From contig NZ_LMMP01000010.1 of the NCBI RefSeq assembly GCF_001422815.1, positions 1-64,000 on the forward strand: 64,000 nucleotides of DNA. The letters run 5' to 3'. Shown here in pieces: positions 976 through 18,065 of this stretch. Under the pieces are notes generated by a model, which worked only from the letters and a program-made list of their open reading frames with translations, searched no databases and had not been told where the DNA came from. The translations under genes and the position numbers were made by a program. The first letter of the stretch is position 1; every line of letters starts with the position of its first letter. The DNA comes from Methylobacterium sp. Leaf91. GTDB lineage: Bacteria; Pseudomonadota; Alphaproteobacteria; Rhizobiales; Beijerinckiaceae.

Positions 976-1728
976 ATGCTGACCGACCACCGCTATCAGG
1001 AGATCCTGTCCCGTCTGAACGGAACGGGTCGGGTCGGCGTCTCCGACGTCGCCGCCTATCTCAGGGTTTCCGAGGAGACCATCCGGCGCGACCTGAAGGT
1101 CCTGGAGGAGCGCGGCGTCCTGCGCCGGATCCATGGCGGCGCGGTGCCGCCGCGCCTGGACCAGGACCGGCCTCTGCACGAGCGGGGCAAGACCAACCCG
1201 CGCGAGAAGGCGAAGGTGGCGGCCAATGCCGAGGGGCTGATCCGCGACGGGATGTCGGTCTTCATCGACACGGGCACCACGACGCTCGCTTTCGCCCGCC
1301 GCCTCAGCGGCCGCAACCTCACGGTGACGACGAATTCCATCGACGTGGCGCTCCATCTCGGCAACGGCCCCGCCCGGGTGAACCTGACGCCGGGAATGCT
1401 GCGGGCGCGGGACAACGCCCTCGTGGGCTACGAGACGGTGGCCTACGCGCAGCGGTTCTATTTCGACATCGCCTTCATGGGCATCGCGGCCTGCGACCTC
1501 ACCCATGGCTGGATGGATTACGAGGAGCACGAATCCGCCCTGCGGAAGGTGCTTCGCGGCCAGGCACGCCAGAGCGTGCTTCTCGCCGATTCCCGCAAAT
1601 TCGGCCGTCAGGCGAACCTCTGCACCTTCGGGCTCTCGGAACGGCTCACCCTCGTCACCGACCGGCCGCCGCCGCAGCCGTTCCTGGATCATTTCACCCA
1701 GCATGACATCGATCTCATCAGTTCCTGA
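976..1728 (+). CDS. DeoR/GlpR-family transcriptional regulator
   Basis: A 250-residue protein with the family's standard length and layout. Residues about 8-58 form the winged helix-turn-helix, including VSEETIRRDLKVLEERGVLRRIHGGA, in which the RRDL-LE-G--RRIHGGA pattern is the DeoR signature. The rest is the sugar-phosphate-isomerase-like sensor domain with DTGTTTLAFAR. The ATG at 976 (MLTDHRYQEIL) places the helix-turn-helix at the normal distance from the start; the frame is open further upstream but without family-like sequence. It overlaps the next gene by 26 bases, so the two are co-transcribed. DeoR members usually sense phosphorylated sugars or sugar-like metabolites. That fits an operon containing two kinase-fold enzymes and a phosphatase-fold enzyme. 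Confidence 0.9.
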   Translation: MLTDHRYQEILSRLNGTGRVGVSDVAAYLRVSEETIRRDLKVLEERGVLRRIHGGAVPPRLDQDRPLHERGKTNPREKAKVAANAEGLIRDGMSVFIDTGTTTLAFARRLSGRNLTVTTNSIDVALHLGNGPARVNLTPGMLRARDNALVGYETVAYAQRFYFDIAFMGIAACDLTHGWMDYEEHESALRKVLRGQARQSVLLADSRKFGRQANLCTFGLSERLTLVTDRPPPQPFLDHFTQHDIDLISS

Positions 1729-3025
1729 CGCAGCTGCGGCGGCCAGCGCATTCCACGCGCTCTTCGAAGAGATCTCCGCCTGCGGCGCGACACCCGGCGG
1801 CGGCATCACCCGGCTCTGTGCGTCGGCCGAGGACGGACAGGCCCGTCGCGTTTTCGCCAATTCCGCCCGCGAGGCCGGCGCCGAGATCCTCCTCGACGCG
1901 GTGGGCAACCAATTCGCCGTCTTCCCTCTCACCGACGGTCCCAGTGCCCCGCTGGTGATGATGGGCTCCCATCTCGACAGCCAGCCGAAGGCCGGCCGCT
2001 TCGACGGGACCTACGGCGTGGCAGCGGCCGCCGGCATCGGCGCCGCCCTGATGCGGGCGCGGCGCGCCGGCGAGACCTTCACGGCGGATTTCTGCGCGGT
2101 GAACTGGACCGGCGAGGAGGGCGCGCGCTTCCGTCCGAGCCTCCTCGGCAGCGGCGCCTATGCGGGCGCGCGCCGGATCGAGGAGGCTTTGTCCAGCCGT
2201 GACGATGCCGGGATCACCCTGCGGGAGGCCCTGGGCGGGATCGGGTTCCTCGGCACGGACCGGCCACCGCCGCTCCCGGCCTGCTACCTCGAACTCCACG
2301 TGGAGCAGGGCCTCGTCCTGGAGAACGCGAAGGCGACCATCGGCGTCGTCACCCGCAACTGGGGGGCGGCGAAGATCGACGTGGTCTTCACCGGCGAGCA
2401 GGCCCATACCGGCCCGACCCCGATGCCGCGCCGGCGCGATGCGCTGCTCGCCGCCGCCTATCTGATCGCCGAAGTGAGGGAGATCGCCGAGCGCTGGCCC
2501 GGCCGCTTCCATACCTCGGTGGGACGCATCATGGTGGAGCCGAACTCCCCCAACGTGGTGCCCGCCCGGGTGGAGCTCAGCGTCGAGCTCCGTTCGGCCG
2601 ACGATCGCCTGCTCACCGATGCGACCCTGATGGCGGAGGCGGCGATCACCGAGGCGGCGTGCCGCGCCGGCGTCGTGGCCGCAATTCCCGGCCGGACGCT
2701 GCGGCCGATCCGCAATCTGCCCGAGGCGGTGTGCGATCTCGTCTCCTCCTGCGCCGAGGAGGCGGCCTTGCGGTCGCTGCGCATGGATACGGTGGCCGGC
2801 CACGACGCGATCAGCCTGCTCGGCCAATGCCCGACCGGCATCGTCTTCGTCCCCAGTGTCGACGGCATCGCGCATAACGAGGCCGAACTGTCGCGGCCGG
2901 CCGATCTCGAAGCCGGGCTCGCGGTGGCCTTACGCGCCGCATGGCGCTTGTGCCGTAGCGGCGGATCTCCGGAACGGGCCTTGCTCGTCAAACGGCCGAA
3001 CGAAGCGTTCGGAGCGGAGCGATGA
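1703..3025 (+). CDS. M20-family Zn-dependent amidohydrolase (carbamoylase/allantoate amidohydrolase type)
   Basis: A 440-residue cytoplasmic enzyme of the group that hydrolyses N-carbamoyl amino acids, ureido acids or related amides. Metal-ligand motifs are intact: GSHLDSQPKAGRFDG with His90, Asp92 and Asp101, GEEGARF with Glu138-Glu139, and a late AGHDA motif that supplies a His. Between them lies the dimerisation domain, including AHTGPTPM. The start at 1703 lies inside the 3' end of the DeoR gene; the frame continues upstream only as antisense-like sequence. The stop overlaps the next gene's ATG (ATGA at 3022-3025), which indicates translational coupling. The substrate cannot be read from sequence. 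The kinase-fold neighbours argue against a plain allantoin or hydantoin pathway, whose other genes are absent here. Confidence 0.85.
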   Translation: MTSISSVPDAAAAASAFHALFEEISACGATPGGGITRLCASAEDGQARRVFANSAREAGAEILLDAVGNQFAVFPLTDGPSAPLVMMGSHLDSQPKAGRFDGTYGVAAAAGIGAALMRARRAGETFTADFCAVNWTGEEGARFRPSLLGSGAYAGARRIEEALSSRDDAGITLREALGGIGFLGTDRPPPLPACYLELHVEQGLVLENAKATIGVVTRNWGAAKIDVVFTGEQAHTGPTPMPRRRDALLAAAYLIAEVREIAERWPGRFHTSVGRIMVEPNSPNVVPARVELSVELRSADDRLLTDATLMAEAAITEAACRAGVVAAIPGRTLRPIRNLPEAVCDLVSSCAEEAALRSLRMDTVAGHDAISLLGQCPTGIVFVPSVDGIAHNEAELSRPADLEAGLAVALRAAWRLCRSGGSPERALLVKRPNEAFGAER

Positions 3026-3972
3026 TACAATACGGTGAGGCCGGCACTTCTTTCGACCATCGCGTCGAAGCCATCATCGCCACGCGGCCGGACTGGATCG
3101 CGCGCCAGCCTCGCTATGGGCTGGCCGCAGCACCGGTGGCATCCCCGACCCACCGGGCCGTGGCCTCGGACTGTGTCCAGGTCGCGTTCCGCGAGGGCGA
3201 GCCGGTCTTCCTCAAGCTCCGTCACGCCGATATGGCGGACGATCTGACGCCCGTGGCGGCGCAGGCGGCCCGCAAGGCCGCGCGCCTCGGCATCGCCCCG
3301 GAGGTGGTCCACGAGGCGGACGAGGCGCTCGGCCTCGCCTACCTGCCCGAGCCCTGGCGCTATGGCCGGGTCGGCGACCTCCAGGACAGGACGATCCTGG
3401 CCGAGGTGCTGGATGCCAAGGCGCGGCTCCATGGCGACGGCCTACTCGGCCATCGATTCTGCCCCTTCGCGCGGATCGAACGCCTTGCCGCCGAGGCCCG
3501 TGCCGCCGATGCTCCGCTTCCCGACGGGACCGACCGGCTCGTGGCGGCGATGGCGCTCGTGCGCGAGGCGATCCATGCCTCGGGCATCGACTTCGCCTTC
3601 TGCCACAACGACGGCATCGCCTCGAACGTCATGATCGGGGAGGGCGAGATCCGTCTCGTCGATTTCGACCTGGCCGGCGACAACGACCCCTGGTTCGATC
3701 TCGGCGCCCTCCTCAACGAGACCTGCCTCTTCGAGCCGGAGCGGCGCGAGGCGGTGGAGCATTATGCCGGCCGGTTCGACGAGCGCCTCTACAACCGCTG
3801 CCGCCTCTACGGCGCGGTCGATGACGTGATGGGCGGCCTCTGGGGCGTCACCCGTGCGGTCACCTCGGCGCGGAGCGGGATCGAGTTCTACAAATACGGA
3901 ACCTGGCGGCTCCTGCACGCGCGCACGACCGTCGGCGCGCGTGACTTCGAAAGCTGGCTGCGCCGGCTATGA
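3022..3972 (+). CDS. choline/aminoglycoside-kinase-fold phosphotransferase (first of two)
   Basis: A 316-residue member of the APH/choline-kinase superfamily, which transfers phosphate from ATP to hydroxyl groups of small molecules. The catalytic loop reads CHNDGIASNVMI, with His195, Asn196 and the catalytic base Asp197, followed by the metal-binding LVDFD (Asp214). The C-terminal segment FYKYGTWRLLHAR is shared with the next gene, so the pair are paralogs. The protein starts by ATGA overlap with the amidohydrolase. The classical N-terminal Gly-rich loop is weak. No family comparison was possible, so ethanolamine, choline, an amino alcohol or a sugar all remain possible substrates. Confidence 0.82.
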   Translation: MIQYGEAGTSFDHRVEAIIATRPDWIARQPRYGLAAAPVASPTHRAVASDCVQVAFREGEPVFLKLRHADMADDLTPVAAQAARKAARLGIAPEVVHEADEALGLAYLPEPWRYGRVGDLQDRTILAEVLDAKARLHGDGLLGHRFCPFARIERLAAEARAADAPLPDGTDRLVAAMALVREAIHASGIDFAFCHNDGIASNVMIGEGEIRLVDFDLAGDNDPWFDLGALLNETCLFEPERREAVEHYAGRFDERLYNRCRLYGAVDDVMGGLWGVTRAVTSARSGIEFYKYGTWRLLHARTTVGARDFESWLRRL

Positions 3973-4006
3973 CACGGGCATTCGAAACGGGAGGCAGCGA
4001 ACGGCG

Positions 4007-4945
4007 ATGAGCTGGAAAGGCTTGGGCGACGGCATCAGCGAGGGCGAGCGCGCCCTGGAGGGCGTGCTCGCCGGCATCGCTGCCTGGCGGGGCCGGCCGA
4101 TGCGCTACCGGCCGGTGGCGGGCGGGATCAGCAACACCAACTGGCGCGTCGCCATCGGGGACACGCAGGATTATTTCGTGAAGATGCCCGGCCGTGGCAC
4201 CGAGATGTTCATCACCCGCGACTGCGCCAACGATGCCAGCCGGCGCGCGGAGGCCTGTGGCTACGGCGTCCAGGTCGTCGACTACCTGCCCGATGCCGGC
4301 GTCGAGATCTTCGCCTTCGTCGAGGGTTACCGCGCCTCCTCGAATCTCGACTTCCTGCGCCCCACCGTGCGCCACAACGCCGTGAAGGCGTTGAAGGCCT
4401 TCAACGATTCCGCGCCGCTCGGGCTGACGAAGACGATCTTCGAAATGATCGAGGAGCATGTCGAACAGGTCGCGGAGGTGGGCGGCCGGCTTCCGGCCGA
4501 CCAGGCCTATCTGATGCGCTGCGTGGCCGAGGCGAAGGCCGCGATGACGGCTTCCGGCCTCGATCTCGTGCCATGCATGAACGATACGCTCGCCGGCAAT
4601 TTCATGATCGACGAGGCCGACAATGTCCTGCTGGTCGACTTCGAATACGCCTCCAACAACGAGCGCGCCTACGAGCTCGCCCTCTGGTTCGACGAGATGG
4701 CGTTCCCGGACACGATCGAACGCGAGATGATCGAGGCCTATTTCGGCCGCTGGACCCCCGAGATCCATGCGCGCATCGCGGTCCTGAAGGCGCTCGGCGA
4801 TCTCAAATGGGCGACCTGGGCGATGATCCAGGAGGCCGTCTCGACCCTCGATTTCGACTATTACAAATACGGAACCTGGAAGCACATGCGGGCCCGAACC
4901 CTGTTCCACCATCCCGACTGGCCACTCTGGCTGAGGCGCCTGTGA
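4007..4945 (+). CDS. choline-kinase-fold phosphotransferase (second of two)
   Basis: A 312-residue paralog of the preceding kinase-fold protein. It starts at an ATG preceded by a purine-rich GGGAGG ribosome-binding site at 3990-3995, 34 bases after the previous stop. The N-terminal nucleotide-binding region is better preserved here (PVAGGISNTNWRV). The catalytic loop reads CMNDTLAGNFMI: Asp193 is kept but the His of the usual H-N-D motif is Met191. The metal-binding LLVDFEYA carries Asp211. It shares the C-terminal YYKYGTW block with its partner. Choline and ethanolamine kinases show the same DFEYA element, so an amino-alcohol substrate is a reasonable guess. The two proteins may act on different intermediates or form a heteromer. 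Confidence 0.82.
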   Translation: MSWKGLGDGISEGERALEGVLAGIAAWRGRPMRYRPVAGGISNTNWRVAIGDTQDYFVKMPGRGTEMFITRDCANDASRRAEACGYGVQVVDYLPDAGVEIFAFVEGYRASSNLDFLRPTVRHNAVKALKAFNDSAPLGLTKTIFEMIEEHVEQVAEVGGRLPADQAYLMRCVAEAKAAMTASGLDLVPCMNDTLAGNFMIDEADNVLLVDFEYASNNERAYELALWFDEMAFPDTIEREMIEAYFGRWTPEIHARIAVLKALGDLKWATWAMIQEAVSTLDFDYYKYGTWKHMRARTLFHHPDWPLWLRRL

Positions 4946-5745
4946 TGGGTGTGGGTGCATCGCCGATCCGGTCCGGGGACGAGGCGACGAAGGCTGATTT
5001 CCTCGCCTTCGCCCATCGCCTCGCGGATTTCGCCGCGCCGCTCGCCCGGCACTATTTCCGCACCGAACTACCGGTGGAAGCCAAGGCCGATGCGAGCCCG
5101 GTCACCGCCGCCGACCGCGCCATCGAATCCCTGCTGCGCGCCGAGATCCGCAGCGTCTATCCCGACCACGGCATCCTCGGCGAGGAGGAGGGCGGTGATT
5201 TCGAGCGGCCGCTCACCTGGGTGATCGACCCGATCGACGGCACCAAGAGCTTCATCACCGGCATGCCGCTCTTCGGCACGCTCATCGCCCTGGTCTCCGG
5301 CGGACGGCCGATCGTCGGCGTCATCGACATGCCGGCGCTCGGCGAACGCTGGTGCGGAACCGGCGACGCGGCGTGGTTCGACGGCCGGCCCGCCCGGACG
5401 AGCGGCAGGCACCTTCACGAAGCCCGCCTGTTCGCGACCTCCCCGGACATTTTCGAGGGCACGGATGCGGAGGCCTTCGCACGGCTGAGCGGAGCGGTGG
5501 GCCTGCGCCGCTTCGGCGGCGATTGCTACGCCTACGGCCTCCTCGCCAGCGGTCATTGCGACCTCGTGGTGGAAGCGGGGCTCCAGGTCTACGACGTCAT
5601 GGCCCTCGTGCCGGTGGTGGAGGGGGCGGGCGGGGTGATGACCGATTGGGACGGTCGCCCCCTGACCCCGGCTTTCGACGGACGGGTCGTGGCCGCGGCC
5701 AATGCCGGCCTCCACGCCGAGGCCCTCCGGCACTTGCGAGCCTGA
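4945..5745 (+). CDS. inositol-monophosphatase-family phosphatase (histidinol-phosphatase-like)
   Basis: A 266-residue Mg-dependent phosphatase of the IMPase fold. Ligand motifs are GEEEGGDF, then WVIDPIDGTKSF with Asp95 and Asp98, then the C-terminal metal site VVEAGLQVYDVMALVPVVEGAGG. The sequence resembles the HisN type of histidinol-phosphatase more than SuhB. Its ATG overlaps the preceding stop by one base (TGATG), the tightest coupling in the operon. A phosphatase following two kinase-fold enzymes suggests that a phosphorylated intermediate is made and later dephosphorylated, or that it dephosphorylates a pathway end product. A housekeeping role in histidine synthesis cannot be excluded, but no his genes are nearby. 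Confidence 0.85.
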   Translation: MGVGASPIRSGDEATKADFLAFAHRLADFAAPLARHYFRTELPVEAKADASPVTAADRAIESLLRAEIRSVYPDHGILGEEEGGDFERPLTWVIDPIDGTKSFITGMPLFGTLIALVSGGRPIVGVIDMPALGERWCGTGDAAWFDGRPARTSGRHLHEARLFATSPDIFEGTDAEAFARLSGAVGLRRFGGDCYAYGLLASGHCDLVVEAGLQVYDVMALVPVVEGAGGVMTDWDGRPLTPAFDGRVVAAANAGLHAEALRHLRA

Positions 5746-5812: not shown

Positions 5813-6739
5813 ATGACCGTTCTGTTCCATCATGCGGCCGCGTTCGAGCATCGCACGCCGCACGGACATCCCGAGCGGCCGGAGCGCATGAAGGCGGTTC
5901 AGGAGGCCCTCGGGACGGCGGACTTCTCCGGCCTCGACCGTCGCGCACCCGAGGCGGCCGCCCTCGAATCGGTCTTCCTCGCCCATCCCGAGGAATGGGT
6001 CCGCGCCATCCTCCGCTCGGTGCCGAGCGAGGGGCTCGCCCATCTCGATTCCGATACGGTGCTCTCGCCGGGAACGATGGATTGCCTCCTGCGCGGTGTC
6101 GGTGCGGCCGTGCAAGGCGTCGACCTCGTGATGACGGGCACGGCCCGCAACGCCTTCTCGGCCATGCGGCCACCGGGGCATCATGCCGAACGTACCAAGG
6201 CGATGGGCTTCTGCGTCTTCAACAACGCGGCGATCGCCGCCCTTCACGCCCGGAAGGTCCACGGGGCGGAGCGGGTCGCCATCGTCGATTGGGACGTGCA
6301 TCACGGCAACGGCACGCAGGACATCGTCTGGTCCGACCCATCCGTGCTGTTCTGCTCGACCCACCAGATGCCGCTCTATCCCGGCAGCGGAGCGGTGTCC
6401 GAGGAGGGCGAGCACGGCACCATCGTCAACGCGCCGCTCAAGCCCTTCGCCGATGGCGACGCCTTCAAGGAGGCGATGCGAAGCCGCATCCTCACCCGTC
6501 TCGAGGCGTTCAAGCCCGACCTGATCGTCATCTCCGCCGGGTTCGACGCCCATTGGCGCGACCCGCTGGCCAACCTCATGCTGGAGGCCGAGGATTTCGC
6601 CTGGGCGACCAGCCAAGTCATGGAAATCGCCGACCGCACCTGCGACGGCAGGATCGTGTCGCTGCTGGAAGGCGGCTACGACCTGAAGGGCCTCGGTGAC
6701 TCGGTGGCCGCCCACGTATCGGTCCTGATGGGGGCGTGA
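5813..6739 (+). CDS. histone-deacetylase-family amidohydrolase (acetylpolyamine amidohydrolase type)
   Basis: A 308-residue member of the arginase/deacetylase superfamily. Bacterial members remove acetyl or other acyl groups from polyamines, lysines or small amides using one Zn. Active-site motifs are present: RPPGHHAE with the tandem His123-His124, the metal-binding DWDVHHGNGTQ (Asp159, Asp161, His163, His164), and SAGFDAHWRDPL carrying the third metal-ligand Asp. The ATG at 5813 follows a clear GAGGGGAG ribosome-binding site; an upstream extension into the previous gene's 3' end is not needed. It is separated from the kinase/phosphatase operon by 67 bases that contain a GGTATACC palindrome, so it is probably transcribed on its own. 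Confidence 0.9.
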   Translation: MTVLFHHAAAFEHRTPHGHPERPERMKAVQEALGTADFSGLDRRAPEAAALESVFLAHPEEWVRAILRSVPSEGLAHLDSDTVLSPGTMDCLLRGVGAAVQGVDLVMTGTARNAFSAMRPPGHHAERTKAMGFCVFNNAAIAALHARKVHGAERVAIVDWDVHHGNGTQDIVWSDPSVLFCSTHQMPLYPGSGAVSEEGEHGTIVNAPLKPFADGDAFKEAMRSRILTRLEAFKPDLIVISAGFDAHWRDPLANLMLEAEDFAWATSQVMEIADRTCDGRIVSLLEGGYDLKGLGDSVAAHVSVLMGA

Positions 6740-7141: not shown

Positions 7142-9340
7142 ATGACGCAACTGAGTGCCACCCGGACGGCCGACCCTGCCCTGGATCCTCGCCAGGATGC
7201 CGACCCCTCGGATCTCGGTCCGGACCTGACCGTCTGCGACCGTGAGCCGATCCATATTCCGGGAGCGATCCAGCCGCACGGCCTCCTGCTGATCGCGAAT
7301 GCGGAAGACCAGAGGGTGGTCGGCGGCGCGGGCGACATCGAAGGAATGCTCGCCGCGGAATGGACCGGGCGGACGTTGTCCGAGCTCCTCGGCGCCTCGC
7401 CGGCCTCCCTGCTGCTCGACGCGCCCCGCGACGAGACCGTCGTGATCGGTCACGTCATGGGGCTCCGCGCGGCAATGGATGCCACCGCGCGCTTTCAGGA
7501 CGGCCAATGGCTGATCCAGCTCGAACCGCAGGCCTCCCTGTGGACCGATGCGGCCAGCCTTCTCGGCTGGCTCGACCGCGCCGGAAGCGCCCTGGAGCGG
7601 GCCACCGACCTCAAGGCCTTGTGCGACCGGGCGGCGACGTCGTTCCGCGAGCTCACCGGTTTCGACCGGGTGATGATCTATCGCTTCCTCGACGACGATG
7701 CCGGCGTCGTCATCGCGGAAAGCCGCGTTCCCGAGCTCGGCAGCTTCCTGCACCACCATTTCCCGGCCTCGGACATCCCGAAACAGGCGCGCGCCCTCTA
7801 CATCCGCAACCGCGTCCGCGTGATCCCGGACGTCACCTATACGCCACAGCCGCTTCGGCCCCGGCACCTGTCGCAGCTCGATCTGAGCGACATCGAACTG
7901 CGCAGCGTCTCGCCGATCCACCTTCAATATCTGCGCAACATGGATGTGGCGGCCTCCGCCTCGATCTCCATCGTCAAGGACGGCATTCTGTGGGGGCTCG
8001 TGGCCTGCCACAACCGTACGCCGCGCACCCTCGCCTTCGGACAGCGCATGGCCTGTCAGGCCCTGGCGGGAAGTCTCGCCCGTCAGGTCAGCTCGCGGGA
8101 GGAAGCCGAGAATTACCGTGAGCGGCTGCGGCTGCGCAGCGCCGAGGACGTGGTCTCAGGAAAGGTTCTGGGCGAAGCCCCCCTCGCCGAAATTCTGATC
8201 GAGACGAGCGAGGAGCTGCGCCGCATGCTCGGCGCCGACGGCTTCGCGCTGCTCCAGGGCAGGGACCTCCACCATACCGGACGCTGCGCCGAGGAAACCG
8301 ACCTGCGCGAGATCGCGGCCTGGGTCCGGACGGTGGGCGGGGTACAGGCGCTTCACACCCACAGCCTCAGCAAGCGCTTCCCCCGCGCCGCCGCCTATCG
8401 TGCGCTGGCGAGCGGGCTCCTCGCCGTCGTCCTGTCGGGGGAGGAGCCGATCATCCTGATGTGGTTCCGGGCCGAGCGGGTCGAACTCGTCAACTGGGCC
8501 GGCAACCCTCACAAGGCCGCCAACGTCGTCGGCGATACCTTGAGCCCCCGCGCCTCCTTCGAAGCCTGGACCGAGGAGGTCCATGGCCATGCCAAACCCT
8601 GGTCGCTCCCCGAGATCGAGGCGGCGCAGCGCATCGTGCGCGAGCTCTACGAGGCTCGTCAGACCCGGCGCATCCGTGAGCTCAACCGCGAGCTCGCCGC
8701 CACGGTGGCGGACAGGGAAAGCCTGCTGGTCCAGAAGGATTACCTGATCAAGGAAGTGAATCACCGCGTCCAGAACAGCCTGCAGCTGGTCTCGGCTTTC
8801 CTCGCCCTGCAGGCGAGGGCGGAAGGCAATGCGGGGCTCAGCGAGGCATTGAGCGAGGCGCAGCGCCGGCTCGCCGCCGTGGCCCTGGTGCACCGACGGC
8901 TCTACAGCGACGACAACGTCGAAATGATCGATCTGGCCCGCTACCTCGACGATCTCGTCTCCGAAATGAAGTCGTCGATGGGCCCTGAATGGGCCGAGCA
9001 GTTCAGCACCGATTTCGCCCCGATCATCATACCCACCGACGCTGCGGTGAATATCGGTCTGATCCTGACCGAGCTCGTCATCAACGCCAACAAATACGCC
9101 TATTCCGGCGCGGTCGGTCCCATCGCCCTCAGCCTCGAACAGCATCGCAACCGCTTCCGCCTGATCGTCGCCGATCAGGGACAGGGCATGTCGGGTACAC
9201 GGAGCGGATTCGGGACGCGGATGCTCAACGCCATGGTCGACCGCCTCGGCGGGACGATCGAGAACACCAACAACCGGCCGGGATTGAGGGTGATCCTGAC
9301 GGCCTCCATCGGTGCGCCCGATCCGGCATCCCTGCCATGA
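7142..9340 (+). CDS. bphP: bacteriophytochrome sensor histidine kinase
   Basis: A 732-residue red/far-red photoreceptor kinase with PAS-GAF-PHY-kinase order. Cys32 in VCDREPIHIPGAIQPHG is the biliverdin-attachment cysteine of bacteriophytochromes. The GAF domain (about 145-320) holds the chromophore motif FPASDIPKQARALY. The PHY domain (about 335-500) keeps the tongue motif SPRASF near residue 468. The kinase is of the HWE/HisKA_2 type, with phospho-acceptor His541 in EVNHRVQNSLQLV, N-box ELVINANKYAYSG and a compact G-box. An in-frame ATG at 7067 would add 25 unconserved residues, so 7142 was preferred; neither has a strong ribosome-binding site. The heme oxygenase that makes biliverdin overlaps its stop. 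No cognate response regulator is adjacent. Confidence 0.92.
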   Translation: MTQLSATRTADPALDPRQDADPSDLGPDLTVCDREPIHIPGAIQPHGLLLIANAEDQRVVGGAGDIEGMLAAEWTGRTLSELLGASPASLLLDAPRDETVVIGHVMGLRAAMDATARFQDGQWLIQLEPQASLWTDAASLLGWLDRAGSALERATDLKALCDRAATSFRELTGFDRVMIYRFLDDDAGVVIAESRVPELGSFLHHHFPASDIPKQARALYIRNRVRVIPDVTYTPQPLRPRHLSQLDLSDIELRSVSPIHLQYLRNMDVAASASISIVKDGILWGLVACHNRTPRTLAFGQRMACQALAGSLARQVSSREEAENYRERLRLRSAEDVVSGKVLGEAPLAEILIETSEELRRMLGADGFALLQGRDLHHTGRCAEETDLREIAAWVRTVGGVQALHTHSLSKRFPRAAAYRALASGLLAVVLSGEEPIILMWFRAERVELVNWAGNPHKAANVVGDTLSPRASFEAWTEEVHGHAKPWSLPEIEAAQRIVRELYEARQTRRIRELNRELAATVADRESLLVQKDYLIKEVNHRVQNSLQLVSAFLALQARAEGNAGLSEALSEAQRRLAAVALVHRRLYSDDNVEMIDLARYLDDLVSEMKSSMGPEWAEQFSTDFAPIIIPTDAAVNIGLILTELVINANKYAYSGAVGPIALSLEQHRNRFRLIVADQGQGMSGTRSGFGTRMLNAMVDRLGGTIENTNNRPGLRVILTASIGAPDPASLP

Positions 9341-9978
9341 CCCGTACTGCGCTCGCGATTGGCGGCCCGGAAGCGCCCCTGGCCGAACGGCTGCGCGAAG
9401 GCACGCAGGATCTGCACGAGGAACTGGAGCGCTGCCTCGATTGGCGCCAGCGGATGGCGACGCGGGACGGATACCTGACCCTGCTCGCCCGCTGGTGGGG
9501 CTTTCATCGTGTGTTCGAGCCCATCGTCGGCCAAGCCTTCGGGCGCGACGTCGCATGGCCGCGCCGCAAACTGCACCTGATCGAGCGGGACCTCGTCCAT
9601 TTCGGCATGAATCGCGACGCCATCGAGGCCTTGCCCCGTTTCACCGTCGGAACGGGTTTCGACGACCGCCCCGCGATCCTCGGCGCCCTCTACGTCACCG
9701 AAGGCTCTACGCTCGGTGGACAGGTCATCGCCCACCACATCCGCCGTAGCCTCGGAGATGCGATCGCCTCGGGCGGCTGCGCTTATTACGAAGGCTACGG
9801 GAAGCGGGACACCGCGGCGATGTGGACCTCGTTCCGGACCTTCCTGGACCGGTCGGGCGAAGAGGGCCGATCCGAGAGCGTCATCGAAGGCGCGCGGTGG
9901 ACCTTCGACGCGCTGCGGCTATGGCTCACCGCCAGCAACCCACCCCGACCCGCTTTGGGCGAAGCCGCCCGGCGCTGA
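9337..9978 (+). CDS. bphO: biliverdin-producing heme oxygenase
   Basis: A 213-residue bacterial heme oxygenase that opens heme to biliverdin, the chromophore of the upstream phytochrome. The proximal heme ligand is the His in TQDLHEELER near the N-terminus. The distal helix is represented by GALYVTEGSTLGGQVIAHH, the conserved Gly-rich segment of the BphO subfamily. Translation starts at ATGA overlapping the bphP stop (9337-9340), so receptor and chromophore enzyme are made together. Length and motifs match BphO rather than HemO/HugZ enzymes used for iron acquisition. No reductase is adjacent, so electrons presumably come from a general ferredoxin system. Confidence 0.9.
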   Translation: MTRTALAIGGPEAPLAERLREGTQDLHEELERCLDWRQRMATRDGYLTLLARWWGFHRVFEPIVGQAFGRDVAWPRRKLHLIERDLVHFGMNRDAIEALPRFTVGTGFDDRPAILGALYVTEGSTLGGQVIAHHIRRSLGDAIASGGCAYYEGYGKRDTAAMWTSFRTFLDRSGEEGRSESVIEGARWTFDALRLWLTASNPPRPALGEAARR

Positions 9979-11218: not shown

Positions 11219-12829
11219 TCAGGCCCGCTCCATCTGCAATCCCGGCACGGCCGAGAGCAGGTCGCGCGTGTAGGGATGGTCCGGCCGGCGGAACAGGTCG
11301 GCGGTCGGCCGCTGTTCCACGATCTCCCCCCGATGCATCACCGCGATCCGGTCGCAGATCTTGGCCGCGACGCGCAGGTCGTGGGTGATGAACAGCATCG
11401 CGAGGTTCAGGCGCTGCTTCAGATCCTCGAGAAGGTCGAGCACCTGTGCCTGGACCGACACGTCGAGGGCCGAGACGGCCTCGTCGGCGACCAGCACGTC
11501 GGGCTCCATGGCGAGCGCCCGGGCGATGCCGATGCGCTGGCGCTGGCCGCCGGAGAAGGCGTTCGGATAGCGCTCGGCGGCGCTGGGCGACAGGCCGACG
11601 AGATCGAGCAGGTCGCGCGCCCGCGCCCTGGCCTCGCGGGCCGGAACACCATGGGCGATCGGCCCGGCGGTGATGATCTGCTCCACGGTCCGGCGCGGGT
11701 TGAGGGAAGCGAAGGGGTCCTGGAAGATCATCTGGATACGCTTGCGCTCGGCGCGAAGCGCCCGCGGCCCCAAAGCCGTGTAGTCCAGCGCGCCGAGGCG
11801 GACGGTGCCCTGGTCGGGGTCGATGAGTCGGATGGCGAGGCGCGCCGTGGTGGATTTGCCCGAGCCCGATTCACCGACGAGGCCCAGGGTCTCGCCGCGC
11901 CGGACGTCGAATGCCACCTCCTTGACCGCGTGGACGATGCGCGGCGGCCCGAACAGGCCCCGGCGCGAGGTATAGGTTTTCGTCAAGCCGATGGCCGACA
12001 GGGCGATGGGCGCGCCTTCCCGTGATTCGCGCTCCGGCGGCACGATGCTCGGCACCGCCGCCAGCAGCGCCTTCGTGTAGGGATGGTGGGGGTTCCGCAA
12101 AACCTCGTCGGCGGAGCCCGATTCCACCAGCTTGCCGCGCTGGAGCACTGCCACATGGTCGGCGATATCGGCGACGACGCCGAAATCGTGGGTGATGAAC
12201 AGGACGCTCATGCCCCGCCGCCGCTGCAGGTCGCGGACGAGCTTCAGGATCTGCGCCTGGGTGGTGACGTCCAGCGCCGTGGTCGGCTCGTCGGCGACGA
12301 GGATCGAGGGTTCGAGCGCCAGGGCCATGGCGATCATCGCGCGCTGGCGCTGACCGCCCGACAGCTGATGCGGATAGGCGCGCACGATCTGCGCCGGGTC
12401 GGGCAGGCCGACCTCGGTGGCGAGCGCCATGGCCTTGGCCCGCCGCTCGGCCTTGGTGAGAAGGTTGTGCGCCTCGAACATCTCGGCGATCTGGTCGCCG
12501 ATCCGCATGACCGGGTTGAGCGCCGTCATCGGCTCCTGGAACACCATGGCGATGCGGCGCCCGCGCAAAGCACGCCAGTCGCGCTCGCCGAGGGTGAGCA
12601 GGTCCCGCCCCTCGAACACGATGCTGCCGCCAACGGGCGTGAGGGCACGCGGCAGCAGACCGGTGAGCGCATAGGCGCTCATGGATTTTCCCGAGCCCGA
12701 TTCGCCGACGACGCAGAGGATCTTGCCCGGCATCAGATCGAGGGAGAGATCCTCCACCGCATGCGGCCGGTCCGCCCCCTTCGGCAGGGCCAGGGTGAGG
12801 TTGCGAATGCTGACGACAGGCTCGCTCAT
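11219..12829 (-). CDS. fused dual ATP-binding protein of oligopeptide/dipeptide-type ABC importer
   Basis: A 536-residue protein with two complete nucleotide-binding domains, equivalent to DppD and DppF joined. Domain 1 (about 1-270) has Walker A GESGSGKS, signature [12 protein letters not shown] and Walker [13 protein letters not shown]. Domain 2 (about 285-536) has [24 protein letters not shown] and [12 protein letters not shown]. Each ends with the C-terminal extension of oligopeptide transporters, with [14 protein letters not shown] and [14 protein letters not shown]. The gene starts at ATG 12829, two bases after the M20 peptidase stop; the open frame continues upstream only as antisense to that gene. 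It completes the importer formed with the two permeases and the binding protein. Confidence 0.93.
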
Positions 12830-12831
12830 GG

Positions 12832-14253
12832 TCAGGTCTCCCGTTTCGCGGCGCGCTTCGCCCGGATGCCGGGTCCGGTCTCCCCGAGATCCCAGAACAG
12901 GCCCGCCATCAGCATCAGCGCCTCGCGGCTCATCGGCCCGAGCAGGTGCTCGTCCGGACCGTGCTGAAGGCAGGCCGGGTAGGAATGCGGCACCCACAGG
13001 GTCGGCAGGCCGAGGATCTCGGAAAAGGCGTCGTTGGGCAGCGAGCCACCGAGATTGGGCAGCAATGCCGGGCGCTTGCCCGTGCTGGCCTCGATGGAGG
13101 CCAGCGCCCAGCCGACCCAAGGGTCCTCCACGGGAAGGCGGGTGGCGCGGAACACTTCGGAACGGGCCGCCCGCACCTCGACCATGGGGAAACCGTTGGC
13201 GTCGAGATGGGCGCGCACGGCCGGGATCAGGCCCTCCCAGTCGGTGCCGACGACGAAGCGCAGCTGCAGCGTCGCCTTGGCGTGGGGCGGCACCGCATTG
13301 AGCGGGCCGTCGGGGTCGCCGGTCTTGAAGGCGAGCACTTCGAGGGTGTTCCAACCGAAGACGCGCTCGGCCGCATTGAGGCCGGGCTCGCCCCATTCCT
13401 CGTCGATCCTCGGCGCGGTGGGGTCGGTCCCCACCACGATGTCGGCGAGCGCCGCCCGCACGCCCTCGGGGATCGCGGGCGGCCGCAGGGCATCGAGGAG
13501 GATCTTGCCGCGCCCGTCGACCAGGGTCGCGATGGCGTTGGCCAGCACCGTGCCGGGATTGCGGAGCAGGCCGCCCCAATTGCCCGAATGGTGGCTGCCC
13601 TCGCGCAGGTTCACGATGAGTTCGAACGTGTAACCGCCGCGCGAACCGAGGAAGAGGGTGGGGCGCTCCGCGCTCACCCGTGGCCCGTCGGAGGCGATGA
13701 GTACGTCGGCGGCGAGGGCGCGCGCCTCGGTCCGGCACAGGTCGCGCAGGCCCGGCGAGCCGGATTCCTCGCCCATTTCGATGAGGAGCTTGGTGTTGAA
13801 GCCGAGGCGCCCGCCTCTCGCCGCCATCACCGCCTCGAGCGCGCCGAGATTGATGATGTGCTGGCCCTTGTTGTCGGCGGTGCCACGGCCGTACCAGCGG
13901 TCCCCCTCGACGACGATCGCCCACGGGTCGAGGCCGGCGCGCCATTGTTCGGGGTAGCCGCGCACGGTGTCGCCGTGGCCGTAGATCAGCACGGTGGGCA
14001 GGTCGTCGCCCTCGTGGCGCTCGGCGATGAGGAAGGGGCCGTGCTCGCCGTCGGGATTGTCGAGGATGCGGCCGGTGAAGCCCAGCGGCGCGATGGCGGG
14101 CATGAGGAAGTCGGACAGGTAGGCATGGAGCGCCGGCAATTGCCCTGTCGTCTGGCTCTCGGTGGGGCGGGCGACGGCATCCTGCAGGACGGCGCGGAAA
14201 CCGCCTCCGTCGTAGTGGCGCGCGGCATGCGCGATCGCATCGTGTCGGGACAT
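12832..14253 (-). CDS. M20-family metallopeptidase
   Basis: A 473-residue dinuclear Zn aminoacylase/dipeptidase-fold enzyme. Metal-ligand motifs are LIYGHGDTVRG (His and Asp), RGTADNKGQH (bridging Asp), IEMGEESGSPGL (catalytic Glu pair) and a C-terminal HGPDEHLL His. The inserted dimerisation domain lies in the middle. There is no signal peptide, so it acts in the cytoplasm on substrates delivered by the surrounding ABC importer. It sits between the permease and ATPase genes, which argues that the importer carries short peptides or N-acylated amino acids rather than metals. The leader upstream of its ATG contains a 14-base tandem repeat and only a weak ribosome-binding site. Confidence 0.88.
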   Translation of the reverse strand: MSRHDAIAHAARHYDGGGFRAVLQDAVARPTESQTTGQLPALHAYLSDFLMPAIAPLGFTGRILDNPDGEHGPFLIAERHEGDDLPTVLIYGHGDTVRGYPEQWRAGLDPWAIVVEGDRWYGRGTADNKGQHIINLGALEAVMAARGGRLGFNTKLLIEMGEESGSPGLRDLCRTEARALAADVLIASDGPRVSAERPTLFLGSRGGYTFELIVNLREGSHHSGNWGGLLRNPGTVLANAIATLVDGRGKILLDALRPPAIPEGVRAALADIVVGTDPTAPRIDEEWGEPGLNAAERVFGWNTLEVLAFKTGDPDGPLNAVPPHAKATLQLRFVVGTDWEGLIPAVRAHLDANGFPMVEVRAARSEVFRATRLPVEDPWVGWALASIEASTGKRPALLPNLGGSLPNDAFSEILGLPTLWVPHSYPACLQHGPDEHLLGPMSREALMLMAGLFWDLGETGPGIRAKRAAKRET

Positions 14254-14266
14254 GGATCCACTCTGT

Positions 14267-14332
14267 GTCGGGTGGGCGGAGTTGGGTGGGCGGAGTTGGG
14301 TGGGCGGAGTTGGGTGGGCGGAGTTGGGTGGG
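14267..14332. repeat. tandem repeat, 14-base unit, about 4.7 copies
   Basis: The unit gttgggtgggcgga is repeated perfectly at 14281-14294, 14295-14308 and 14309-14322. A copy with one mismatch precedes it (14267-14280) and a 10-base partial copy follows (14323-14332). It fills the space between the permease stop and the M20 peptidase start, so it is transcribed as part of the operon mRNA. Such arrays change copy number by slippage. Confidence 0.95.
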
Positions 14333-14353
14333 AATGCGAGGGGAGGGGAGCGC

Positions 14354-15319
14354 TCAGCGCCGCCCCTCGGGTGCCGTGACGTCGCGCAATCCGTCGCCGA
14401 GGAGGTTGATGGCGAGCACGAGGACGAGGAGGGCGACGCCCGGGATGGTGATGACCCAGGGCTGGAAGAACATGTACGGCTTGCCCTCGGCGATCATCAG
14501 CCCCCAGGAGGGCAAGGGCGGTTGGACGCCGAGGCCGAGGAACGACAGGGCCGCTTCCAGCAGGATCGCGTGCGCCATCTCCAGGGTCGCCACGACGATG
14601 AGCGCGTTGAAGATGTTGGGCAGGATTTCCTGGAACAGGATCCGGGCGTTCGAGAAGCCGGCGGCGCGGGCCGCCGCGACGAAATCCTGGTCGCGGATCT
14701 GGCGGGTGGCGGCACGCGTCACCACGGCGAAGCGGTCCCACAGCAGCAGGCCCAGCACCAAGACCACCACCTTCAGCGAGCCGCCCACCAGGGAGGCCAT
14801 GGCCAAAGCCACCAGCACCACCGGCATGGCGAGGCGCGTGGTGACGATGTAGCTCACCACCGCGTCGACCTTGCCGCCGAAATAGCCGGCGCAGATGCCG
14901 AGCACGGTGCCGATCAGGCCGGAGATGCAGGCCGCCGCGATCCCGATGAGAAGGGAGATCTGGCTGCCGTAGATCAGGCGGCTGAGATAGTCGCGCCCGA
15001 GCTTATCGGTGCCGAGCACATGGTCCCACGTCCCCTTCGCGTTCCAGATCGGCGGAATCAGGCGGCGCGAGACATCCTGGGCATAGGGGTCGTGCGGGGC
15101 GATCAGGGGCGCGGCCAGGGCCGCGAGGACGATCCCGCCGAGGATCACGGCCCCGATCATGAAGCCGCCGTGATGGAGGCCGCGCCGGAGGGCGAGCGCG
15201 GTGGGCGAGCGCGACGCCGGCAGCGGCGCGTTCGCGTCGGGCACAGGACCGGCCTGGACCAGCAGATCGGCCGAGGGAAGGGCAGGAGCCACCGGGGAGG
15301 AAGACGGCTGAAGGGTCAT
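14354..15319 (-). CDS. peptide-type ABC transporter permease (DppC-like)
   Basis: A 321-residue inner-membrane permease. A Pro/Ala-rich N-terminal tail of about 45 residues precedes the first membrane helix (GFMIGAVILGGIVLAALAAPLI). The N-terminal OppC-type segment APHDPYAQD and the LGTDKLGRDYLSRLIYGSQ motif identify the DppC/OppC subfamily. The cytoplasmic EAA-like loop is RAAGFSNARILFQEILPNIFNALIV. The start at 15319 overlaps the stop of the DppB-like gene by four bases. It pairs with that protein to form the translocation pore. Confidence 0.93.
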   Translation of the reverse strand: MTLQPSSSPVAPALPSADLLVQAGPVPDANAPLPASRSPTALALRRGLHHGGFMIGAVILGGIVLAALAAPLIAPHDPYAQDVSRRLIPPIWNAKGTWDHVLGTDKLGRDYLSRLIYGSQISLLIGIAAACISGLIGTVLGICAGYFGGKVDAVVSYIVTTRLAMPVVLVALAMASLVGGSLKVVVLVLGLLLWDRFAVVTRAATRQIRDQDFVAAARAAGFSNARILFQEILPNIFNALIVVATLEMAHAILLEAALSFLGLGVQPPLPSWGLMIAEGKPYMFFQPWVITIPGVALLVLVLAINLLGDGLRDVTAPEGRR

Positions 15320-16230
15320 TGGCGCAGCCGGGGATCGAGGAAAGCGTTGAGCAGGTCGGCGGCCAGCGTCAGGGCGATGTAGATCATCGCCAGGACGAGG
15401 ACGATCGCCTGCACCACGGGGAAGTCGTTACGGGCGATGGATTCCCAGGCGAGCTGCCCAAGCCCCTGGAGCGAGAACACCGCCTCGATGACGATGGAGC
15501 CGCCGAGCATGAAGCCGAACTGCACGGCGGCGAGCGCGATCACCGGGATCACGGCGTTGCGGAGCGCATGCCGGATCAGAATCTTTCGCGGGGGCAGGCC
15601 CTTGGCCCGGGCGGTGCGGACATAGTCCGAGGCCAGCACCTCCAACATGCCGTTGCGGGTGAGGCGCATCACGGCGGGCATGGCGTAGTAGCCGAGCGCG
15701 ATGGCCGGCAACACGAAGTGCTTCCAGGTCGTGTTGCCCGAGACCGGCAGCCAGCGCAGGTTCACCGAGAAGACCATGATCAGCGTCAGGCCGAACCAAA
15801 AGCTCGGCATCGCCTGACCCAGCACCGAGACCGACAAAGCGAGCCGGTCGATCCAAGTGTCGCGCTTCACCGCCGCCAGCACGCCGAGCGGGATCGCCAC
15901 GAACAGGGCGACGGCCAGCGCCACCACGCCGAGGAACAGGGTGATCGGCATGCGGGAGGCGAGGAGGTCGACCACGCTTTCCCGGAAGTAGAAGGAATTG
16001 CCGAAATCGAAATGCAGCGCCTTCCACGCCCAGGCGGTGAATTGTGCCAGCATCGGCTGGTTCAGCCCGTACTGGACGCGGATCGCCTCGACCTGGGCGG
16101 AGGTGGCCTCGGGACCGGCAATGGCGGCGGCGAGGTCGCCGGAGAGGTGCAGCAGCATGAAGCTCGCCACCGACACCGTCACGGCGACCGCGATGGCGAC
16201 GAAAATGCGCTGCAACATGAACCTGAGCAT
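15316..16230 (-). CDS. peptide-type ABC transporter permease (DppB-like)
   Basis: A 304-residue inner-membrane protein with six predicted helices and the DppB/OppB pattern. It starts MLRFMLQRIFVAIAVAVTVS, has the conserved periplasmic loop ending DFGNSFYFRESV, and carries the cytoplasmic EAA loop YVRTARAKGLPPRKILIRHALRNAVIPVI. It is the first permease after the binding-protein gene. Between the two lies a 192-base gap occupied by an inverted-repeat element. The next permease overlaps its 3' end by four bases. Confidence 0.93.
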   Translation of the reverse strand: MLRFMLQRIFVAIAVAVTVSVASFMLLHLSGDLAAAIAGPEATSAQVEAIRVQYGLNQPMLAQFTAWAWKALHFDFGNSFYFRESVVDLLASRMPITLFLGVVALAVALFVAIPLGVLAAVKRDTWIDRLALSVSVLGQAMPSFWFGLTLIMVFSVNLRWLPVSGNTTWKHFVLPAIALGYYAMPAVMRLTRNGMLEVLASDYVRTARAKGLPPRKILIRHALRNAVIPVIALAAVQFGFMLGGSIVIEAVFSLQGLGQLAWESIARNDFPVVQAIVLVLAMIYIALTLAADLLNAFLDPRLRQ

Positions 16231-16270
16231 GGGCCGTCATCCTCGTTCGGTTGGGCCAGTCGCGACGCGG

Positions 16271-16386
16271 TCCTCCTCCCCCTTGTGGGGAGGAGTTGGA
16301 GGTGGGGGTCGCTCCGCCAGCCTCAACTGAGCGAGGGTCGCCCAACCACCCCCACTCCTAACCTCTCCCCACAAGGGGGAGAGGGA
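16271..16386. repeat. palindromic intergenic repeat element
   Basis: Two arms of about 40-45 bases (about 16271-16312 and 16343-16386) are imperfect inverted copies of each other. Each arm contains its own small hairpin, with ccccc-ttgt-gggg in one and cccc-acaa-ggggg in the other. The whole could fold into a long stem or a cruciform. It lies in the operon mRNA between the binding-protein and permease genes, where it may act as a stabilising or processing structure. It looks like a dispersed extragenic repeat; other copies would be outside this window. Confidence 0.8.
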
Positions 16387-16422
16387 CGCGCTCTGCTGAC
16401 AGAGCCGGCGCCTTTGGAACCC

Positions 16423-17949
16423 TTACTTCCAACTCGCCGCGTAGAAGCGCGGCAGCTCGTCGGGCTGCGCCGTGAAGGTGAGGTCCGAGGTGAAGGCGTA
16501 GTTGGTCGAGTAGGAGAACAGCGGCAGGATGTAGGCCTGGGCCGCGATGCGCTTGAGCGCCTCGGCGTATTTCACCTTGCGCGCAGCCGGATCGGTGGCG
16601 CCGTCGCCGGCCTGGAGCGCCGCGATGGTCTCGGGATCCTTGGTCAGGTCCTCGTCGCCGCCCTTGAGGTAGACGCCGGTGAAGGCCGAGACGTCGAGGA
16701 CCGAGAACGAGCCCCAGGTCTGGAAGGCGATGGAGACCTTGCCGCTCCGGATCATGTCGCGCAGCGCCGCGTAGCGCAGGTAATTGAGCCGAGCCGTGAT
16801 GCCGACGGCGCGGAGATACCCGATGACGGCCTCGGCGTAGTCGCGCTCACGATAGGCGCCGAGATCGATCTCGAACCCGTCGGGATAGCCGGCCTCCTTC
16901 AGGAGCGCCTTGGCCTTGGCCGGATCGTAGGCGTAGCGCGGCACGCCCTCGTCGGTACAGCCGAACTGGTCGATGAAACAGGCCGCGTTCATGACACGGC
17001 TGCCGCCGCGGACGAGGTTGTCGACCATCGCCTTGCGGTCGATGGCGTAGGAGATCGCCTGGCGGACGCGGGGATCCTTCAGCGGCGAGTTTTCCTTCGC
17101 GCGGCCGAGCGTGTCGAATTGCAGGAAGCCGACCCGCATGGTCTCGGCGCTGAGGACCGTGACGTTGGGCGCGGCCTTGAGCTGGTCCGCCTGGTCGCTC
17201 GGCACGCGCCAGATCCAGTCGATGCCGCCGGTGACGAGTTCGGCCATGCGGCTGTCGGCATCGGGAATGACTCGGAATTCGAGCTTGCCGATCTTTGGCG
17301 TGCCGATCGGGCTGCCGGGCCAATATTTGTCGTTCCGCTCCATCTTCACCCCGCGCCCGTTCTCGACGCTGGTGATGCGATAGGGGCCGGTGCCGATGGG
17401 GGCCTTGGCGAAACCGTCGAGGCCGACCTTTTTGAAGTAAGCGGCCGGGAAGATCGGGGTCGGTCCGGCGAGGTATTCGAGAGCGGCCGGGAAGGCGGTC
17501 TTGAGGTGGATGCGGACGGTCTTGGCGTCCACCACCTCCGTCGACTTCATCCAGTCCACATTCTGCTTCGTCACCGTGCGCGCCTCGGGCGTCAGCACGT
17601 AGTTGAAGGTGAAGGCCACGTCCTCGGGGCCGAAGACATCGCCGTTATGGAAGGTCACGCCCTCGCGCAGGGTCAGTTCGAGGGTCGTCGGGTCGACCCA
17701 TTTCCAGGCGGTGGCCAGCATCGGCTGATACGCGCCGGTCTTCGGATCGCGGTAGAGCAGGGTGTCCCAGACGTTGCGGGCGAGCACGACGCCCTCGCGG
17801 GCGCTGTTGTGATACGGGCTCACGTTTTCCGGCTCGGTATCCGAGGCATAGACCAGGGTATCGTTGGCCTTGCCGGCCAGCGCCGGAACGCTGAACGTCC
17901 CCAGCAGGAGAGCGAGCGCGGCGCCTGCCGCGGGAACATGTCTGGCCAT
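16423..17949 (-). CDS. periplasmic substrate-binding protein of peptide-type ABC importer
   Basis: A 508-residue SBP_bac_5 family protein. Residues 1-25 form a signal peptide (MARHVPAAGAALALLLGTFSVPALA). The mature protein shows family hallmarks: TLREGVTFHNGDVFGPEDVAFTFNY, then ALEYLAGPTPIFPAAYFKK, then IGTGPYRI. The ATG at 17949 is preferred because an AAAGGA ribosome-binding site lies about 9 bases upstream; the ATG at 17958 would be too close to it. As the first gene of the minus-strand operon it is made in excess of the pore. The ligand is probably a peptide or similar amide. Confidence 0.92.
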   Translation of the reverse strand: MARHVPAAGAALALLLGTFSVPALAGKANDTLVYASDTEPENVSPYHNSAREGVVLARNVWDTLLYRDPKTGAYQPMLATAWKWVDPTTLELTLREGVTFHNGDVFGPEDVAFTFNYVLTPEARTVTKQNVDWMKSTEVVDAKTVRIHLKTAFPAALEYLAGPTPIFPAAYFKKVGLDGFAKAPIGTGPYRITSVENGRGVKMERNDKYWPGSPIGTPKIGKLEFRVIPDADSRMAELVTGGIDWIWRVPSDQADQLKAAPNVTVLSAETMRVGFLQFDTLGRAKENSPLKDPRVRQAISYAIDRKAMVDNLVRGGSRVMNAACFIDQFGCTDEGVPRYAYDPAKAKALLKEAGYPDGFEIDLGAYRERDYAEAVIGYLRAVGITARLNYLRYAALRDMIRSGKVSIAFQTWGSFSVLDVSAFTGVYLKGGDEDLTKDPETIAALQAGDGATDPAARKVKYAEALKRIAAQAYILPLFSYSTNYAFTSDLTFTAQPDELPRFYAASWK

Positions 17950-18065
17950 GATCCGCATTCCTTTCGCTACCGGCTGCTCGGCGGCCCGTGGCCGATCTGC
18001 ACTGCCGCTTTTTTCCTCGTGCCATGGTGTTGTGCATTCCACATCGCAGCAAGTAGAATTTATCG

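Follow-up and report, generated by a model that had tools for sequence, protein, structure and literature searches.

A widespread amidohydrolase and kinase gene module in Methylobacterium sp. Leaf91 and other bacteria, with a possible role in the catabolism of an ethanolamine-containing amide

EutBC ethanolamine catabolism begins with free ethanolamine. A second described route, which involves GlnA4, passes through gamma-glutamylethanolamide, and no kinase, M20 enzyme or phosphatase is described for it in the sections available of the two source papers (PMC6529630, PMC10132767). In those sections, the ethanolamine cluster of S. coelicolor comprises a short-chain dehydrogenase, an aldehyde dehydrogenase, glnA4 and a glutamine amidotransferase, the last step being assigned, as a proposal, to a formylglutamate-amidohydrolase-family enzyme (PMC6529630), and the route of Phaeobacter uses a gamma-glutamylase and two dehydrogenases (PMC10132767). 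In a third system an ethanolamine kinase is combined with a phospho-lyase (solved structures 5g4i and 6tor). Here, a five-gene operon of Methylobacterium sp. Leaf91 was compared with these systems. It lies in a stretch of 64 000 nucleotides (assembly GCF_001422815.1, contig NZ_LMMP01000010.1, positions 1–64 000), hereafter called the window. Its core, a module of an M20 amidohydrolase gene and two kinase genes, belongs to a gene set that is genuine, widespread, bacterial and without a name so far. On the reading that we favour, to which we give not quite an even chance, the operon is a catabolic route for a small ethanolamine-containing amide of the N-acyl- or N-carbamoyl-ethanolamine type, which would be phosphorylated, cut to phosphoethanolamine and dephosphorylated. 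The predicted product is thus the compound with which EutBC catabolism starts, whereas the module would act upstream of it, on an amide.

All five open reading frames are on the plus strand (976–5745). A sequence-only reading of the window had proposed this operon and the identities of its genes, and both held when the families were checked with profiles. The first gene (976–1728) encodes a DeoR/GlpR-type regulator, whose HTH_DeoR and DeoRC domains both scored above the cut-off (PF08220, 60.7 bits, cut-off 21; PF00455, 134.4 bits, cut-off 31.8). It overlaps by 26 bases the gene of a hydantoinase/carbamoylase-type M20 amidohydrolase (1703–3025, ATG at 1703; TIGR01879, 283 bits, cut-off 204), the predicted cutter of the phosphorylated amide. 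After an overlap of 4 bases comes kinase A, of the APH/choline-kinase family (3022–3972; PF01636, 46 bits), followed after 34 bases by kinase B, of the same family and the better conserved of the two (4007–4945; PF01633, 69.5 bits). The last gene (4945–5745) overlaps kinase B by 1 base and encodes a HisN/IMPase-type phosphatase (Inositol_P), the module's paralogue of HisN.

Related loci were collected by scanning genome contigs with kinase B as the sole query. Of the 167 loci confirmed, the best 80 were kept with flanks of up to 10 kb, a choice that favours close relatives, and genes were counted by gene calling and tblastn. These 80 loci span 30 genera, six of them unclassified bins, and hold near-duplicates (e.g. 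L082 and L083). Kinase A was directly upstream of kinase B in 80/80 loci, and in 78/80 it was itself immediately preceded by the M20 gene; the exceptions were L097, in which no M20 gene was found, and L091, in which it stands beside a kinase A matching in two pieces. A DeoR gene was present within 6 kb in 70/80 loci and a same-strand AS amidase somewhere in the locus in 63/80. A HisN-type phosphatase was found directly 3′ of the module in 26/80 loci; 8/80 had a HAD phosphatase. A sodium:solute symporter was present in 31/80 loci and a dipeptide-type binding protein in 25/80. The association goes beyond chance, since the gene order recurs across 30 genera; the five families are linked in relatives and not scattered. 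The distribution of the module is patchy. A kinase B-like match (E ≤ 1e-40) was obtained in 39 of 297 genomes of the order, some of these matches being distant, and a match at E ≤ 1e-60 in 3 of 385 genomes sampled from the class and 6 of 398 from the phylum, the genus itself being counted. Full-text literature searches, whose coverage leaves out most subscription journals, gave no paper describing the gene set or naming the system, as judged by title and abstract where papers were listed; this agrees with the earlier remark that no named pathway is known to have this set. A full-text search on a related enzyme property gave no match either.

Genes of ethanolamine metabolism adjoin the module in some lineages. 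Their neighbourhoods were compared in a wider set of 132 loci, shares of which are only rough because it includes 11 loci of a sister system (L164, L185–L194) and regions fetched twice (e.g. L169 = L070, L171 = L055, L172 = L120). EutB was found in 7/132 loci and EutC in 6/132 (L045 is cut at that point). Chance alone would roughly give about 0.5 loci with EutB, taking a genome of 5 Mb with a single EutB and 20 kb for each locus. In five loci EutB directly adjoins the 3′ side of the module on the same strand: L115 (Neorhizobium), L160 (pAt15955), L162 (Paracoccus yeei), L170 and L198. The last is from a genome of the window's genus, whose sole EutB is the module-adjacent one. In L044 (pAoF64/95) and L045 (pRi1724), eutB and an N-formylglutamate-amidohydrolase-family gene are placed upstream, divergent from the amidase of the operon.

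An Arthrobacter plasmid (L163) carries, next to its module, gene kinds of the gamma-glutamylethanolamide route, as far as the available sections of its two papers list them. There the kinases, an IMPase, an AS amidase, a symporter and the M20 gene are under GntR in place of DeoR, and the neighbours are a short-chain dehydrogenase, an aldehyde dehydrogenase, a gamma-glutamyl hydrolase and a glutamine-synthetase-like gene. We infer that the latter is GlnA4; no curated model calls it so. A partial set is present in L256, about 4–8 kb downstream of kinase B and on the opposite strand: a glutamine-synthetase-like gene with an aldehyde dehydrogenase and an iron-type alcohol dehydrogenase, the two dehydrogenases being named by eye. 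Glutamine-synthetase-like genes were found in 3/132 loci. The ordinary type III glutamine synthetase of L054 (690 bits) was not counted as an ethanolamine gene.

Homologues of the phospho-lyase adjoin the module in two families. A class III pyridoxal-phosphate enzyme is next to DeoR in 5/5 genomes of one genus (L179, L251–L254), in the examined stretches of which no HisN-type gene was found. The best solved relatives of the L179 protein were the bacterial phospholyase 5g4i (379 bits) and the human ethanolamine-phosphate phospho-lyase 6tor (338 bits), the next family scoring 190 bits. In L180 a phospho-lyase homologue, likewise next to DeoR, is accompanied by a glutamine-synthetase-like gene and an iron-type alcohol dehydrogenase, and in L127 one lies 8–9 kb from the module. 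The class III enzyme of L123 (<150 bits) was not counted. Unlike the described pair of ethanolamine kinase and phospho-lyase, most module loci are without a phospho-lyase, and the module adds two amidases. The window itself carries neither EutBC nor glutamylation genes. These three unrelated kinds of neighbour share one metabolite pair, ethanolamine and its phosphate, which suggests that the amino alcohol of the amide proposed in the sequence-only reading is ethanolamine.

On the favoured reading, an importer would take up the compound and the AS amidase would trim it or cut an amide. A choline-kinase-like enzyme would put a phosphate on the hydroxyl, and the two kinases might differ in acting on two related substrates or on intermediates formed one after the other. 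This phosphate would then supply the anion bound by M20 enzymes of the carbamoylase type, and the phosphorylated amide would be cleaved by the M20 protein to phosphoethanolamine. The HisN-type phosphatase would release ethanolamine for ethanolamine ammonia-lyase or gamma-glutamylation; in some lineages a phospho-lyase may take phosphoethanolamine directly. DeoR would repress the operon until a phosphorylated intermediate appears. The substrate, the order of the steps, the role of each kinase and the DeoR effector are putative. The same logic of phosphorylation, hydrolysis and dephosphorylation had been put forward from the window alone. It gained indirect support from the recruitment of HisN-type phosphatases at least twice and from the three unrelated gene kinds next to the module in different lineages, and the step order keeps the conjectural standing it had.

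Carbamoylase-type M20 enzymes grip a carboxylate via conserved His, Asn and Arg residues. The M20 protein of the module keeps the fold family of carbamoylases and allantoate amidohydrolases. The metal ligands of that family are retained too. Among 98 module proteins, H90, D101, E138, E139, H199 and H391 are each present in 98/98, as are H235 (97/98), N284 and R297 (98/98 each), which we take to be the family's anion-binding residues. The module proteins differ from that family in being tied to the kinases and in forming a clade of their own: in a quick tree of 55 rows, with 35 of the 98 module proteins, they made up one side of a fully supported branch, the other side holding 20 non-module M20 proteins of related genomes. 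Three residues mark this clade, each of them in 98/98 module proteins. In the 20 non-module proteins, W220 is replaced by Q (16), L (3) or V (1), K224 by W (16), R (3) or T (1), and R334 by K (7), A (4), F (3), T (2), S (2), N (1) or E (1). The two invariant positive charges, K224 and R334, would suit phosphate binding. A broader proposal, which we regard as possible but doubtful, is a general ‘phosphate handle’ route for phosphorylated amino-alcohol amides, in which phosphate would replace the carboxylate for an enzyme line of N-carbamoyl-amino acids, the module M20 would be specialized on phosphorylated amides and a sister cluster would use the handle for N-demethylation. Such a route, if true, implies an unrecognized ethanolamine amide whose frequency around plants and in soil makes it worthwhile to keep the genes on Ri and other plasmids.

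The same residues bear on the order of the steps. In a reverse order, the AS amidase and the M20 enzyme would free ethanolamine first, and the kinases would be ordinary ethanolamine kinases providing phosphoethanolamine for the phospho-lyase or for lipid. The likeness of both kinases to choline/ethanolamine kinases and the phospho-lyase homologues of L179, L180 and L251–L254 agree with this order. We nevertheless consider it unlikely: the M20 clade has gained invariant basic residues, and kinases acting on free ethanolamine would make a futile cycle in the single operons that join kinases, phosphatase and EutBC (L115, L160, L170 and L198; L162 with the IMPase gene upstream). Phosphorylation was placed before hydrolysis for these two reasons.

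The M20 protein exceeds the cut-off of a subfamily model that bears the name allantoate amidohydrolase (477.9 bits against 424), and nitrogen-related genes are found beside several modules. A dimethylformamidase-like gene adjoins the module in L065, L070 (PF20254), L114 and L178, and three of these loci also have an amide-type ABC importer. On a Paracoccus plasmid (L161) the annotated neighbours of the module include urease genes, genes clustering with the ureC of that locus adjoin it in Methylopila and Methylorubrum (L055, L056, L065), and L046 has an allophanate hydrolase neighbour. These genes may hint at formyl, carbamoyl or urea-like acyl groups, or may be mere nitrogen-scavenging neighbours. 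Together with the subfamily match, they would also fit an operon that scavenges nitrogen from ureides or amides, its kinases and phosphatase acting on an unrelated side product and the ethanolamine genes being chance neighbours. We find this quite improbable, as the M20 gene, kinase A and kinase B are inseparable across the 80 loci and the M20 protein falls far below the cut-off of the AllC equivalog model (TIGR03176, 185.2 bits, cut-off 597.75).

The phosphatase of the window narrowly passes the HisN model (TIGR02067, 277.6 bits, cut-off 275.15). It was nonetheless rejected as the HisN of its genome: a better-scoring copy (311 bits) lies on another contig (C50), and in a 42-row tree the window protein clusters with five other module copies (support 98). 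Clear orthology to a housekeeping enzyme such as HisN, which would have spoken against the sequence-only reading, was thus not borne out. The tree was a quick one with many open forks and two very long branches, in which ‘housekeeping’ is our own label for the best-scoring copy outside the module. Module phosphatases from Ri-type, Shinella, Rhizobium and Mesorhizobium loci fall among the housekeeping HisN proteins of rhizobia. Placing the module and housekeeping labels on the tree requires three changes, at least two of which are forced by strongly supported branches; on this evidence, HisN-type phosphatases appear to have joined the module at least twice, separately. The module phosphatase thus belongs to the HisN family and differs from HisN in being a second, module-linked copy. 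Several module copies score 302–311 bits, about equal to housekeeping copies, and in Stutzerimonas and Halopseudomonas loci the module holds a full HisN-type protein (302–308 bits). In some Pseudomonas clusters a HAD-IB phosphatase takes its place, which reaches 243.7 bits with a histidinol-phosphatase model (cut-off 280). Its value as proof that the substrate resembles histidinol phosphate is reduced by a further paralogue of those genomes with a similar score, and it was treated merely as a phosphatase.

The two kinases are 28% identical to each other and, in an alignment of eight homologues, kinase B is 53–56% identical to other module copies. Residues K65, H195, D197, N202 and D214 of kinase A and K59, D193, N198 and D211 of kinase B are invariant in 8/8 aligned homologues; presumably these are the catalytic residues. 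As they are intact in both kinases, the possibility that one is a dead paralogue was rejected. Both proteins belong to the choline/ethanolamine kinase family (PF01633, 69.5 bits for B and 36.4 bits for A, cut-off 29), and the nearest solved relatives of both are 3dxq (a choline/ethanolamine kinase family protein) and 4r77 (a choline kinase). They fall far below the ThiK and homoserine-kinase cut-offs. Both are distantly similar to GntI, a kinase of guanitoxin biosynthesis, and score far under its cut-off (NF041256, 67.4 and 98.2 bits, cut-off 357).

This weak GntI similarity and the HisN type of the phosphatase would agree with the same phosphate-handle logic applied to another amino alcohol, such as 2-aminopropanol, a histidinol-like or a hydroxylated guanidino compound. 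EutBC accepts 2-aminopropanol too. We hold such a substrate to be rather unlikely, since the three unrelated neighbour gene kinds indicate ethanolamine or its phosphate. The GntI similarity could also point to natural-product biosynthesis or self-resistance, APH-fold kinases including resistance and natural-product enzymes. That the module would serve such a function in place of catabolism is very improbable indeed, given its surroundings of importers, hydrolases and catabolic ethanolamine genes.

Several observations weigh against the ethanolamine-amide route. Most loci have no ethanolamine gene (EutB in 1/80, phospho-lyase in 1/80), so the assignment rests on a minority of them. The EutB of the window's genome is distant from the module, and EutB is present in 37/37 genomes of the genus, with or without the module; for the latter reason, comparing EutB with module presence within the genus was uninformative. 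As the phosphatase scores above the HisN cut-off, its substrate could be the phosphate of another amino alcohol. Finally, a basic residue also occurs in non-module M20 proteins, R at position 224 in 3/20 and K at 334 in 7/20.

If right, the route would be a new upstream branch of ethanolamine catabolism, with a putative substrate, in Methylobacterium, rhizobia, Ri and other plasmids, Pseudomonas (including P. syringae-group strains), Pantoea and Arthrobacter. It would give a role to proteins annotated as allantoate amidohydrolase, choline kinase or histidinol-phosphatase, and would caution against taking the module copies of HisN for histidine genes. It also predicts a nutrient of plant-associated bacteria that is open to direct search.

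The locus is larger than the 976–5745 interval first proposed. The five genes stand as described; these limits are too narrow, since relatives have genes for an ABC importer and an AS amidase ahead of DeoR. The first reading was right about the genes and the operon and overlooked the importer, the second amidase and a second copy of the module. Three importer types interchange among loci: a dipeptide-type ABC importer, a sodium:solute symporter with a small partner, and an amide/branched-chain-type ABC importer. The last, with an AS amidase, precedes DeoR in several Methylobacterium loci (L054, L057, L062 and others). In the window's genome, a 96% identical AS amidase is encoded on contig C5 (195757–197304), 2.6 kb from its end (199 871 bases). 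When mapped to three relatives, the terminal part of C5 and the beginning of the window's contig, window base 1 being the contig edge, come to lie side by side and overlap by about 75 bases; the two contigs therefore very probably adjoin. The solved relatives of the binding protein are generic. A second DeoR–M20–kinase A–kinase B set is present in the same genome on contig C51 (65.8–69.8 kb; L005, 5800–9754), next to a dipeptide-type ABC importer and with no phosphatase directly after it. The kinase B proteins of the two sets are 55% identical and the M20 proteins 43%. The minus strand of the window (11219–17958) also encodes a dipeptide-type ABC importer, accompanied by an M20 peptidase-family gene of its own; the gene of a LysR regulator (18102–19010) runs divergently from it. 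This system (11.2–18.0 kb) was rejected as the importer of the module, as it has its own M20 gene and an amide-type importer and AS amidase lie upstream on C5.

Sister clusters with more distant kinases were found in L164 (271–10825), L185 and L187–L194. They comprise a DeoR gene, a betaine-type binding protein (OpuAC), a permease, one or two dimethylglycine-dehydrogenase-like oxidases and a second kinase. The oxidase of L164 has DAO, FAO_M, GCV_T and GCV_T_C domains, and the cluster of L189 carries a HisN-type phosphatase. These clusters may use the same phosphate handle for N-methylated amino alcohols.

A histone-deacetylase-family gene (5813–6739, plus strand; PF00850, 300 bits) begins 67 bases 3′ of the operon. 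Among the 132 loci, such a gene adjoins the module in the window, L050–L053 and L197, and L101 has one further, weak match distant from the module. It is probably not core to the module, as it follows it solely in close relatives of the window. No Rfam match was obtained within the 64-kb window. Open reading frames resembling a malonate decarboxylase operon lie at 29.6–35.8 kb on the minus strand, judged by eye alone. At 7142–9978, a heme-oxygenase-family gene comes after that of a phytochrome-type histidine kinase, the pairing usual for bacteriophytochromes.

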